A program made the translations under genes and the position numbers. A stretch of DNA of 64,000 bases from Sinanaerobacter sp. ZZT-01 (GTDB taxonomy: Bacteria > Bacillota > Clostridia > Peptostreptococcales > Anaerovoracaceae), in assembly GCF_035621135.1 (NCBI RefSeq), contig NZ_CP141728.1, forward strand, positions 1,798,001 to 1,862,000, read 5' to 3'. Positions 26,064 to 31,312 of this stretch are shown piece after piece. The notes below the pieces were generated by a model. That model was not told the origin of the DNA, did not search any database, and saw nothing but the letters and a program-made list of their open reading frames with translations. Each line of letters begins with the position of its first letter. The first letter of the stretch is position 1.

Positions 26064-26597
26064 TTGAAACTTACAGACATTGATGAGATGGTTTATATTG
26101 AAGGCAAAGCTTTGTACAATTTTTGCAGACATTTAACCCAAGATAAAGAAGAAGCAGAGGAACTCTATCAGGAAACTTTCTTAAAGGCAGTAGAACTGTG
26201 CAGTAAAATTGATGTAGAGAAAAATCCAAAAAGTTACTTAATGTCCATTGCAGTTAAACTATGGAAAAACCGCAAAAGAAAATTTGCTTGGCGTTCTAGG
26301 ATTGCGTTCATACAAAGCAGCAAGGATGAAAGTGCTCGAGAAGAAAATCTGTTTGGAGAAGTACATAGTCCAGAAGATGAATTATTGAAAAAAGAGAAGC
26401 AACGCATCGTATCTGACGCAGTAAAAGAATTAAAAGAAGCGTATCGAACACCAATGTATTTGTACTATGCAGAGGAAATGCCATTAAGAGAGATCAGTCT
26501 GATTTTGCACTTGCCTGAAGGTACCGTAAAAAGTCGGCTTTATAAAGCAAGAAAAGAGATAAAAAAATATCTGGAGGTTAATGGATATGGAAGATAA
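26064..26597 (+). CDS. ECF-type RNA polymerase sigma factor
   Basis: 177-residue sigma factor of the extracytoplasmic function group. Region 2 (about 10-80, with NFCRHLTQDKEEAEELYQETFL) recognises the -10 region; region 4 (about 120-170, with LREISLILHLPEGTVKSRLYKAR) carries the helix-turn-helix. Starts with TTG behind GGAGG at 26051-26055. Its stop overlaps the start of the next gene, which encodes a membrane-anchored regulator, so the two are one operon and the neighbour is probably its anti-sigma factor. Confidence 0.92.
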   Translation: MKLTDIDEMVYIEGKALYNFCRHLTQDKEEAEELYQETFLKAVELCSKIDVEKNPKSYLMSIAVKLWKNRKRKFAWRSRIAFIQSSKDESAREENLFGEVHSPEDELLKKEKQRIVSDAVKELKEAYRTPMYLYYAEEMPLREISLILHLPEGTVKSRLYKARKEIKKYLEVNGYGR

Positions 26598-27717
26598 AGA
26601 ATTGAATCAACTATTAAAAAATGCTCTTTTGACAGACTATGAGCCGGATCATAATCTGAATACAAAAATTTTACAAAAAATAAGGGAGAACCAGAATATG
26701 AATGGAAAAAAAATGAGAAGATTATCCGTTGCTGCCGTAGTATGCTGTGCAGTTTTATGTGGCTCCGTAACAGCATTTGCTGCTTGGACACTGCTGACAC
26801 CAAAGGAGATTGCAACAGAGTATGGGGATAAACAGCTTGCCACAGCATTTGAGAGCAAGGATGCTGTTTCAATGCAAGAATCAAAAACTTATGGAAAGTA
26901 TACGGTCACATTACTAGGCGCCGTTTCAGGTAAAAATTTAAGTGATGTTTGCTCGGAAGAGGAGCAATTGAGTCCGGAAAAAACATATGCAGTTGTCGCG
27001 ATTGCTAATAAGGATGGGAGCCCTATGCCAAAGACTTCTGATGAGACATATGGAGAGGAAGCGTTCTTTGTTTCGCCGTTGATTCAAGGTCTAAATCCCG
27101 CAGAATATAATATTATAACAATGCATGGGGGCTATTCTGAAATAGTAAGAGATGGGATTAAGTATCGAATCATTGAATGCGATAACGTAGAGCTTTTTGC
27201 AGATAAAGCCCTTTATATGTGTGTTAGTAATACAACATTTTTGGATAGAGATGCTTATACCTTTGATGAGAAAACAGGTACGATCTCTGCGAATAAGGAT
27301 TATGAGGGTATGAATCTGCTGTTTGATTTGCCGTTAAAAAAAGAGAAAGCAAATAAAGATGCAGCAAAACAATATTTAAAAAAATTAACGCTGGAAGAAG
27401 AAAATGAAAAAAACAGTAAAGAGGAAGAAGATAAAGAATTTACAAAGCCGGATATCAATGAGGTTCAGAAAAACTGGACGTTGGTTTCAGAGGAAAAAGT
27501 TACTCCGGACAAAGACGGAAGAGTTTATTATTCCCATAAAGGAAAATCCGGATCAGGAGAAGGCTTTATTACAGAGGATGCTTTGTTTGATGAAGGAGAG
27601 ACAGGATATTCCGAGACTATGTCAGGAACGCAATCGAATGATTGGAAAACAGCAGTTCTTTTTTATAAAGATAAAGCTGGTGATATTCTAGTATCCGTAT
27701 ATGAGACGCATATATAA
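26587..27717 (+). CDS. Membrane-bound anti-sigma factor, DUF4179-like
   Basis: About 376 residues: a cytoplasmic N-terminal segment (1-45, likely the sigma-binding part), one membrane helix (about 46-65, LSVAAVVCCAVLCGSVTAFAA) and a large extracellular domain with a lysine/glutamate-rich coiled segment at about 260-290. The overlap with the ECF sigma gene and the one-helix layout point to an anti-sigma factor of the DUF4179 type. The ATG at 26587 is preferred over 26581 for ribosome-site spacing. A possible extracellular signal is unknown. Confidence 0.75.
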   Translation: MEDKELNQLLKNALLTDYEPDHNLNTKILQKIRENQNMNGKKMRRLSVAAVVCCAVLCGSVTAFAAWTLLTPKEIATEYGDKQLATAFESKDAVSMQESKTYGKYTVTLLGAVSGKNLSDVCSEEEQLSPEKTYAVVAIANKDGSPMPKTSDETYGEEAFFVSPLIQGLNPAEYNIITMHGGYSEIVRDGIKYRIIECDNVELFADKALYMCVSNTTFLDRDAYTFDEKTGTISANKDYEGMNLLFDLPLKKEKANKDAAKQYLKKLTLEEENEKNSKEEEDKEFTKPDINEVQKNWTLVSEEKVTPDKDGRVYYSHKGKSGSGEGFITEDALFDEGETGYSETMSGTQSNDWKTAVLFYKDKAGDILVSVYETHI

Positions 27718-27765: not shown

Positions 27766-27797
27766 AAAGAGGTGTTGAACTTGAACACCTCTTTTTT
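27766..27797 (+). terminator. Terminator after the sigma/anti-sigma operon
   Basis: AAAGAGGTGTT pairs with AACACCTCTTT around a 7-nt loop, followed by more T. Confidence 0.85.
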
Positions 27798-27841: not shown

Positions 27842-27866
27842 GACGCAGTATACCTCATACTGCGTC
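27842..27866. repeat. Palindromic site, left of integrase
   Basis: 25 bp made of the arm GACGCAGTA, a 7-nt spacer (TACCTCA) and the inverted arm TACTGCGTC. An identical copy lies at 29264-29288 in opposite orientation, as the spacer shows (TGAGGTA there). Two inverted 9-bp arms around a short spacer are the layout of tyrosine-recombinase core sites. Confidence 0.8.
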
Positions 27867-28074
27867 GACATATTTTTATTTATTTAGACAATATAATTAT
27901 ACATTAAATGCTTGCTGTTTGTCAAATTGCCCCTTAAATTATTATTTAGGGTAAAAAAAGGAAATGTCGACATCATTTTAATCATAACTATAAGGCTCTT
28001 TCCGATAACCCGTCTATAATTCGCCGTCAACATCAGAGTCAAAATAGTAATGGTAGCCAGTAAAGGAGTTTACA

Positions 28075-29238
28075 ATGTCACGCAGAGGAGAAAATATCTA
28101 TAAACGAAAAGATGGACGCTGGGAAGGAAGGATTTTACGCCAGAATGGCAAATATCAATATCTTTATGCAAAATCGTACAGAGAAGTCAAAGAAAAGATG
28201 AAGTATTTTCATGAAAATAAAGTTGAGAAAAAACAGTTTAAGAACCTTAGTAAAGCTTCAGAGCTATTTGATTTATGGCTGAAAGGAGATGTTTCACATC
28301 AAGTAAAACCGTCCACTTACGAAAGCTATCACAGTTGTATGCATAAATACGTAATTCCGTTTTTTCAGAAGAATGAAAATGCTCAAATCACAGTCGATTC
28401 TGTCAGAGCGTTTGTGCGGCTTATAAGGGAAAATACGTCTATTGGAGAAGCATCCAGAAAAAAGATATTGACCATATTTAAAATAGCATTAAAAGAAATA
28501 CTAAAAGATTTACCGATGTCTCATAGTATTCTTGAATTGGTTCAGTTCCCTAAAATAGAAGAAAAAGAAGTACAGGTCTTTTCCATGAAGGAACAACGTA
28601 TGATTGAGCATGCTGCACTGAATCGCGAGGATAAGCGAGCTATCGGAATCGTATTATGCTTTTATACTGGCATACGTCTTGGAGAACTTTGTGCACTAAA
28701 ATGGAGCGATATTGATACAGAATCTGGGACGATGTCTATCACACGGACCGTGTCTCGGACTAGGAATTTTGAAGATGGAAAGAATAAAACGGTTTTGTTT
28801 GTTGGCACTCCAAAAAGCAAAAAATCAATGCGGAGAATCCCTCTCCCTACATTTTTGCTAAAAGTAGTAAGGGAAAATAGAATTGGTTATATAAATGAAA
28901 ATCACTATATATTCTCTGGGAAGAACGTTCCGGTGGACCCTCGCTATTATCAAAAATTATTTAAGAGGATGCTCTTAGAAAGTAAGATACCGGAGCGTAA
29001 ATTTCATGCAATTCGTCATACCTTTGCGACACGTGCACTGGAACTGGGAGTAGATATTAAAACACTTAGTGAGATATTGGGGCATTCTAATGTTTCCATA
29101 ACACTTAATGTCTATGCACATTCTCTCATGGAGCATAAAAGAGCAGCAATTGATAAATTCAACACGATTTACCTTATGAACAAAGACAAAGCATCTTTCA
29201 CCGTCAATTCCACCGTCCAAAAAGTATCAAATATCTGA
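28075..29238 (+). CDS. Tyrosine recombinase (phage/Tn916-type integrase)
   Basis: 387 residues. Site-specific DNA recombinase that breaks and rejoins DNA through a phosphotyrosine link. It has an N-terminal arm-binding segment (GENIYKRKDGRWEGRI, like Tn916-type integrases), a SAM-like core-binding domain (about 60-160) and the catalytic domain with the Arg at 201 (TGIRLGE), His and Arg at 311 and 314 (HAIRH), His at 337 (LGHSN) and the nucleophilic Tyr at 347. All key residues are present, so it should be active. Starts with ATG behind AAGGAG. No excisionase, replication or cargo genes accompany it; palindromic sites flank it. Confidence 0.93.
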   Translation: MSRRGENIYKRKDGRWEGRILRQNGKYQYLYAKSYREVKEKMKYFHENKVEKKQFKNLSKASELFDLWLKGDVSHQVKPSTYESYHSCMHKYVIPFFQKNENAQITVDSVRAFVRLIRENTSIGEASRKKILTIFKIALKEILKDLPMSHSILELVQFPKIEEKEVQVFSMKEQRMIEHAALNREDKRAIGIVLCFYTGIRLGELCALKWSDIDTESGTMSITRTVSRTRNFEDGKNKTVLFVGTPKSKKSMRRIPLPTFLLKVVRENRIGYINENHYIFSGKNVPVDPRYYQKLFKRMLLESKIPERKFHAIRHTFATRALELGVDIKTLSEILGHSNVSITLNVYAHSLMEHKRAAIDKFNTIYLMNKDKASFTVNSTVQKVSNI

Positions 29239-29250
29239 TGTTTTCATTGA

Positions 29251-29298
29251 TTTAAGACAACAAGACGCAGTATGAGGTATACTGCGTCTTTAAGACAA
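29251..29298 (+). repeat. 10-nt direct repeats around the right palindromic site
   Basis: TTTAAGACAA occurs at 29251-29260 and again at 29289-29298, immediately either side of the right palindrome; a near copy (TTTAGACAATA) lies near 27883 beside the left one. They may be accessory binding sites of the recombinase. Confidence 0.45.
29264..29288. repeat. Palindromic site, right of integrase
   Basis: Exact reverse complement of 27842-27866 (9-bp arms, 7-nt asymmetric spacer), starting 26 nt after the integrase stop. Confidence 0.8.
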
Positions 29299-29539
29299 TA
29301 AATGAATAAATTTAGTTTAGCCCGAATAGAACAATATATTCATCAAGCAAAGTGATATACTGTTTGTATTTTTTTGACGAGTTTTATTTAAAGTTTGAAA
29401 TATGCTGCACTAAATTTTAAAAAAAATACTGTCTAAAGATTTATTTAGCAACCACTGAGGTAAGACATAAGGAAGTTTCTGACCAAAGTGTTTTCTATAT
29501 CCAAAATACAAATTTGCCTGAAAACAGGGAGGAATGATT

Positions 29540-31312
29540 ATGAAAAAATTTAAAGATTTCAGTATTTCGCGTAAGTTATTGACCGGATTTTTGAGCTTAA
29601 CATTGATTATGCTGATCATTGGTGGTGTGGGTATCTTTGGAATGGTTCGGATTAATCAGATGGACACTTATTTGTATGAATCACAAACAGCTCCGATGAA
29701 TGATTTAATCAGTGCGATTGAAGATTTATACCAGTTTAGTTCTGATTCGAAGACAGCTGTAATTCAAACCGGTAGCGCGCAAAAGATTGAAGAATTAGAA
29801 AAAGAATATCTCAGTACAAAAGAAAGCTTTATAAATCATGTGGAAGCCTATAGGGAAACAATCAATACTGCGGATTCACTTGCTCTAATTGATGAATCTT
29901 TGAAATTATATGATGAATCATTTGATCCAGCCATTCAAAAATGCTTTCAGGCAGCAAAGGTCGGAAAGCAAGATGAGGCGATGAATGCACTGGAAAATGA
30001 AACGAAAGATATACAAAAAATATATAATAATTTTGACACATTGGTTAATAATCGAATGTATTCTGCACAAAAAACCAGTAAATCAAATGATTCCTCTGCG
30101 GTTTTATTAACAATTATTCTAACCATTTTTGTTCTTATTGGAGGAGGTCTTGCAGTATTTCTTGGATTGAGAATATCAAAAATGATCAGTAAACCAATTG
30201 AGAGGGTCGTTGATGCAGCAAATAAGATTGCATTGGGACATGTGGATGTTGACTTAGATGATATTACTGCTAAAGATGAAACCGGTCAGCTGGCTGCGGC
30301 CTTTACCGGAATGATTGATAGCATTCGCGACCAAGTATTAGCAGCTGAGAGCATCAGTATCGGTGATTTTACGAAAGAAGTGCCTCTACGTTCGGATAAA
30401 GATGTTCTCGGATTGGCATTACAAAAAATTAAGACGGATCTTAATCGAACCTTATTAATTATTAACACAACAGCAGATCAAGTCAATATTGGGGCAGAAC
30501 AGGTATCAAGTGCTTCACAATCGCTTGCATCCGGGGCGGCAGAGCAGGCGGCAACTGTCGAGGAGTTAAATGCGTCTATTACGAATGTTGCACAGCAGGC
30601 AGAGCAAAATTCAGTCAATGTACAGAAAGCTTCGGAATATGTAGGACAAACTGGCTTTGGCGTAAATGAAAGCAATGCGCATATGCAAGAGCTTAGCACT
30701 GCGATGAAAGAAATTAGCATTGCTTCTGAAAAAATATCTAGCATTACTAAAGTAATTGAGGATATTGCATTTCAAACAAATATTCTTGCCTTAAATGCAG
30801 CGATCGAGGCGGCTCGGGCAGGGAATGCAGGAAAAGGGTTTGCAGTGGTTGCAGATGAAGTGCGTAATCTTGCTGCGAAATCCGCAGAGGCGGCAAAGCA
30901 GACGGCAGGCTTAATTGAGCAATCTTCAAATACAGTTTTAGCAGGTGAAAAACAAGCATTGGAAACTGCGCAAATTCTTCAAGAAGTTGCTGAAAAATCA
31001 AGACTTGTTGAACAGGCAATACAAGAAATTGAATCGGCATCGGCTACGCAAGCACAAGCGATTGAACAGATTAACCAAGGTCTTTCACAGGTATCTTCCG
31101 TCGTACAGACAAATGCAGCGACAGCGGAAGAAAGCTCTGCATCTAGTGAAGAATTGGCTGCACAGGCACATACTTTGCAGGAAGAGGTTGGAAAATTTCA
31201 TCTGTTGAAGGAGCAGTCTAACGACACTTCAACGCCTTTGAATGTTCGGACTGTTGCAAGAAACAAACCTCAAAATCAATCTTCTTTGGAGAAAGATACC
31301 ATCAAGTATTAG
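29540..31312 (+). CDS. Methyl-accepting chemotaxis protein
   Basis: About 590-residue membrane receptor. Order: a first helix (about 13-32), an extracellular four-helix-bundle (4HB_MCP-like) sensor (about 35-185), a second helix (about 188-212), HAMP (about 213-265) and a long cytoplasmic coiled coil with the signalling tip. The conserved tip region includes [20 protein letters not shown] and [20 protein letters not shown]. It signals to CheA/CheW; no che genes are in the window. Starts with ATG at 29540, which is well spaced from GGGAGGA. Confidence 0.93.

Follow-up and report, generated by a model that had tools for sequence, protein, structure and literature searches.

Introduction

In the FimB/FimE, C. 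difficile RecV and other promoter switches of this kind, a tyrosine recombinase inverts a promoter held between inverted repeats, and its own gene is not part of the stretch that flips. The locus described here resembles these switches in its enzyme and its promoter, but its recombinase gene lies inside the segment. By sequence, the nearest solved structure to this recombinase is 6emy, an 'Int protein' that we take to be the Int of Tn1549. Integrases of the Tn916/Tn1549 type integrate and excise a large element with transfer genes, whereas our locus lacks the cargo or transfer genes that an ICE of the Tn916 kind would have between its ends, and is proposed to invert in place.

The Hin/hix flagellar switch of Salmonella has the layout in question, with the recombinase gene and an outward promoter within a segment bounded by inverted sites, so that a flip toggles the neighbouring gene (general knowledge; PMC5903667). 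Hin is a serine recombinase, whereas the enzyme here is a tyrosine recombinase (PF00589) with 9-5-9 sites (9-bp arms around a 5-nt centre) and a chemoreceptor as its presumed target. Thus the locus matches Hin-type systems in carrying the recombinase gene and promoter within the segment but would work like Hin without being a member, because its enzyme is of the tyrosine class; the resemblance is one of layout, not descent. RIT elements likewise pair tyrosine recombinases with flanking repeats that are palindromic and inverted, but they have three recombinase genes, measure about 3.5 kb and are thought to be mobile (PMC3414803).

According to the main text of Sekulovic et al. 2018 (PMC5903667), RecV acts on several segments, and inversion signatures lie beside methyl-accepting chemotaxis protein (MCP) or other chemotaxis genes in Anaerotignum propionicum, Clostridium thermocellum and others, with no word in that main text on a recombinase within those segments. 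The same text gives, near the fimbriae of Providencia stuartii, an 844-bp putative invertible segment enclosing a recombinase gene, as a single read-signature report. Because these Clostridia inversions and the Providencia segment were noted there, parts of the present system may already have been seen as signals. In the literature searched, which left subscription journals largely uncovered, we found no description of a recombinase-inside layout for a tyrosine recombinase family. An earlier note on this DNA knew of no described system with exactly this form; that holds insofar as the literature searched describes no such family, and has to be tempered by the layout of Hin and, as far as the main text of PMC5903667 goes, by the Providencia segment.

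Results

Anatomy of the locus

The locus lies in a window (the whole stretch of DNA analysed, 64,000 nucleotides) from Sinanaerobacter sp. ZZT-01, with the following features.

27766..27794, + strand: terminator-like hairpin 3' of the upstream sigma-factor operon, parting that operon from the switch (context)
27842..27866, + strand: left crossover site, GACGCAGTAT-ACCTC-ATACTGCGTC
27867..29263, no strand: invertible segment of 1397 bp with the recombinase gene and promoter, inferred from the site pair and flipped homologs
27896..27925, - strand: outward sigma-70 consensus promoter within the segment, TTGACA-18-TATAAT (12/12), kept in relatives
28075..29238, + strand: tyrosine recombinase of 387 aa, presumed invertase of the segment, with PF00589 and PF14659 matches
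29264..29288, - strand: right crossover site, matching the left site exactly in inverted orientation
29534..31312, + strand: MCP of 592 aa, the presumed switched gene, which the promoter faces only after inversion

The left site reads GACGCAGTATACCTCATACTGCGTC, and comparison within the window sequence places its reverse complement at 29264-29288. Each site is a palindrome of 25 bp, the two are spaced 1397 bp apart, and the left palindrome is longer by one further pair (27841/27867). The arms can be parsed as 9 bp flanking 7 nt or equally as 10 bp flanking 5 nt. Even with 3 mismatches allowed, the 3.37-Mb genome has no third copy of the 25-bp site, and with 2 allowed it has no further pair of these arms, whatever the 5-nt centre. 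Chance is excluded as the origin of this exact inverted pair, which has the inverted arms and short asymmetric centre of a tyrosine-recombinase site, with exact identity of the centre between the two partners.

The recombinase is the sole gene between the sites and meets the definition of a tyrosine recombinase, with PF14659 as its N-terminal SAM-like domain and PF00589 as its catalytic domain carrying the full R-K-H-R-H-Y set (R201, K247, H311, R314, H337 and Y347, roles assigned by motif). This set is unchanged in a homolog of 56-57% identity. The earlier note, which described a complete integrase gene with all catalytic residues between two identical, inverted 25-bp sites, was thus correct on the gene, the residues and the exactness of the copies; its 9-bp arms and 7-nt spacer also hold, as one of the two parsings. 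It overlooked the outward sigma-70 promoter in the segment and the MCP gene at 29534-31312.

The left palindrome would form a stable hairpin followed by T residues, so the palindromes could be read as mere transcription terminators beside a recombinase that is a functionless relic. An intact gene with its catalytic residues in place speaks against a relic, and the palindrome occurs in the genome only as the window pair. The refuting outcome named in the earlier note combined a lack of inverted forms in read pairs and relatives with the same palindromes turning up elsewhere as terminators; with just two copies in the genome, the latter is not the case.

In the stretch that separates the left site from the start of the recombinase gene, the 12/12 promoter is directed out across the left site, with the end of its -10 element 29 nt from that site. 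In the given orientation the best promoter match upstream of the MCP gene is just 9/12. In-silico inversion of the segment moves the 12/12 promoter to 29205-29234, where it faces the MCP gene, whose leader would then include the right-hand site. Judged by anatomy the segment is an invertible promoter, or inverton: inverted repeats enclose a promoter that would come to face a neighbour once the DNA between them is flipped. The given orientation is probably the OFF state for the MCP, because the promoter faces away and the MCP lacks a good promoter of its own.

As the promoter now points to the sigma-factor operon and could yield antisense RNA there, the invertible segment might instead act on that operon, or on the recombinase itself, with the MCP incidental. 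We consider this quite improbable: the terminator-like hairpin at 27766-27794 stands between the switch and the operon, and among homologous loci the left neighbour varies while an MCP neighbour recurs. The MCP remains, on our preferred reading, the gene that inversion would control. Within the operon, at 26064-27717 of the window, the gene for a sigma-70-family factor runs into the beginning of one for a 378-aa protein that has no Pfam match and may be its anti-sigma factor; the latter gene ends just left of the switch.

Conservation of the layout

Relatives were collected by scanning one genome per species with a two-sequence alignment query, which gave 80 relatives. A 57% homolog from the same family (L007) is flanked by inverted sites whose sequence is unlike that of the window sites, and a 36% paralog in the window genome (L004) also lies between inverted sites of a different sequence. 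Inverted site pairs (score of at least 13) were found at 71 of the 82 homolog loci with readable flanks (87%), compared with 0.75% of 1464 shifted control positions taken within the same loci. In an even sample of the class, a homolog was present in 36 of 393 genomes (about 9% of sampled species; E <=1e-55), and sites were present in 20 of 28 loci that were fetched and had readable flanks. Some family homologs in viral and phage collections are on virus-labelled contigs, and three of these homologs have sites; L179 and L180 do not differ from each other.

The geometry of these loci is regular. The left site is mostly 160-280 bp upstream of the start codon, the right site lies shortly past the stop, and of 95 well-scored cases 91 have 9-bp arms, often TCG...CGA, flanking a centre of 5 nt. 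The centre varies among loci and is identical between both copies of one locus, as a tyrosine recombinase would require; our survey script demanded an identical centre within a locus, so the count of agreements is biased that way. A promoter of 12/12 points outward in 27 of 94 loci and inward in none (shuffles, 0.1%); at a threshold of at least 11/12 the numbers are 41 outward and 3 inward (shuffles, 1.2%).

All 25 Lacrimispora-genus genomes carry a recombinase of the window family, and in one subclade one or both sites were not found although the recombinase is kept. We read the missing sites as loss, an inference from sequence comparison. Because this subclade keeps the protein without one or both sites, the recombinase may have another use there. 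At one locus of the site-losing group (L100, grouped with L128 and relatives), a consensus promoter is fixed between the recombinase and an MCP. In the tree, the window recombinase clusters with this mostly Lacrimispora subclade and with L012, whose sites have the same arms as the window sites, CGCAGTAT. Relatives without sites are what one might expect if the palindromes were terminators beside a relic, but in distant relatives the arrangement is kept at matched distances and is in some of them flipped, and together with the intact gene and the single pair in the genome this leaves that explanation with very little credence.

Several of these traits would also suit a minimal mobile element, here a transposable unit made of an integrase alone, bounded by terminal inverted repeats and inserting close to genes. 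The arm sequence CGCAGTwT is common to close relatives in differing genomic contexts, genomes hold several copies, and the solved structures closest to the recombinase in sequence bear the name Int protein. The centres of the sites are specific to each locus, however, and are not common element ends.

Inversion in relatives

Both orientations of the segment are seen at homologous loci. In G248, which belongs to the same genus as the Enterococcus plantarum locus L042, a contig of 3,842,361 bp has redundant ends (1-40127 and 3802241-3842360) that agree at 99.9% in the same direction, the exception being a reversed stretch of 1560 bp around the recombinase. These ends are best read as one locus of an unclosed circle that was assembled twice, once per orientation. 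The arms at this locus differ slightly from each other, and the exchanged letters put the crossover inside the site. Orthologous loci of G240 and G234 have flanks that are 75-85% identical and the segment in opposite orientations. At L011 and L024, cheW and the following stretch, which matches MCP genes, are on opposite sides of the recombinase. In G207, of the Lacrimispora genus, contig C16 opens with the first base of a site core. Contig C12 opens within another site and duplicates 1730 bp of C16; such contig starts are as would arise with both orientations present. Comparing related genomes for both orientations was a check put forward by the earlier note, and G248 and the G240/G234 pair supply the flipped loci it called for.

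Plasmids of E. raffinosus from five strains showed no flip among those that align. Nearly all MCP-linked loci with intact sites are in the same orientation, presumed OFF. This near-uniformity counts against our proposal, as a freely flipping switch might show both orientations more often; either ON is rare in culture or it is selected against in isolation.

What is observed of recombination is inversion in place with unaltered flanks, which counts against a mobile element, and neither an empty site nor an excised form was seen. In the nearest genomes, the 378-aa gene upstream of the switch has no ortholog in G001 or G072, and no close MCP was found in G001, so these genomes give no information for or against an empty site.

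Genes beside the proposed switch

The right-hand neighbour was an MCP in 11 of the 52 loci scanned. Others among these neighbours are CheW, an EAL protein, winged-helix or response regulators, and S-layer or other surface proteins; the EAL protein adjoins the window genome's own recombinase paralog. In Enterococcus the neighbours include a WxL operon, a regulator ahead of accessory Sec genes, and a winged-helix gene ahead of a giant surface protein.

The window MCP shares 57-64% identity with recombinase-linked MCPs of other genera in several loci, compared with 37-48% for the best MCPs in a same-genus genome. Because the linked MCPs of other genera are the closer ones, the recombinase and MCP appear to be inherited together. 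The same contrast (up to 64% against 37-48%) would allow the two genes to move jointly as part of a mobile element. Against this, placement with respect to the neighbour gene is kept among loci and the promoter is directed outward, and with locus-specific centres and in-place inversions also on record we regard the minimal element, which the earlier note had offered as its alternative, as improbable next to a promoter-inversion switch.

Other neighbours fall outside these groups. Three loci of a Lachnospiraceae branch (L045, L057, L058) have a right neighbour from a family of 442-450 aa; the one at L045 (5258-6583) matches a Cas12f1-like TNB (TnpB-type) domain, a match found in 2 of 52 neighbours, and nuclease activity has not been shown. 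At L034, L067 and L082 the neighbour is a protein with a DEAD/helicase-associated domain, located to one side of the recombinase or to the other. In Oscillibacter valericigenes (G203:C1:702326-705095; L113 and L120), two copies of the recombinase stand back to back, and a 271-bp inverted repeat encloses one copy.

Discussion

We propose, with high confidence, that the locus is a self-contained promoter-inversion switch in which a recombinase flips its own gene together with a promoter and thereby controls an MCP. The tyrosine recombinase would bind the two palindromic sites around its own gene and invert the 1.4-kb segment, whose strong promoter points outward at the end that lies 5' of the recombinase gene. 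As given, the promoter would fire left, toward the end of the sigma-factor operon, leaving the MCP without a good promoter (OFF); after inversion it would fire right, through the right-hand site and into the MCP gene (ON). Flipping would make a clonal population a mixture of cells with and without this chemoreceptor.

Directly established are the anatomy, its conservation in many homologs, and the occurrence of both orientations, once within the assembly of a single relative and once when two further genomes are compared at their orthologous loci. Flipping of the window's own copy, and control of MCP transcription by that flip, are inferred in the absence of reads, a second strain or transcript data; inversion of the window segment itself is not shown because there are no reads or second strain of the species. 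The suggestion in the earlier note that the enzyme inverts its own gene and so switches neighbouring transcription gains support from the conserved layout, the outward promoter and the flipped homologs, short of any inversion in the isolate itself.

The signature of an integrase gene, 9-5-9 inverted sites and an outward promoter offers a way to find phase-variable genes from a single genome, without reads. Compact one-gene invertases with locus-specific centres are also candidates for testing as tools. With moderate confidence, we place the locus in a large, undescribed family of self-contained tyrosine-recombinase switches in Clostridia and Enterococcus that would be convergent with Hin, travel with their target gene, often a chemoreceptor, and diversify the chemotactic preferences of clonal populations. 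The genes beside these switches suggest that switching is common in these bacteria for chemoreceptors, CheW, cyclic di-GMP enzymes, and surface proteins and their regulators.
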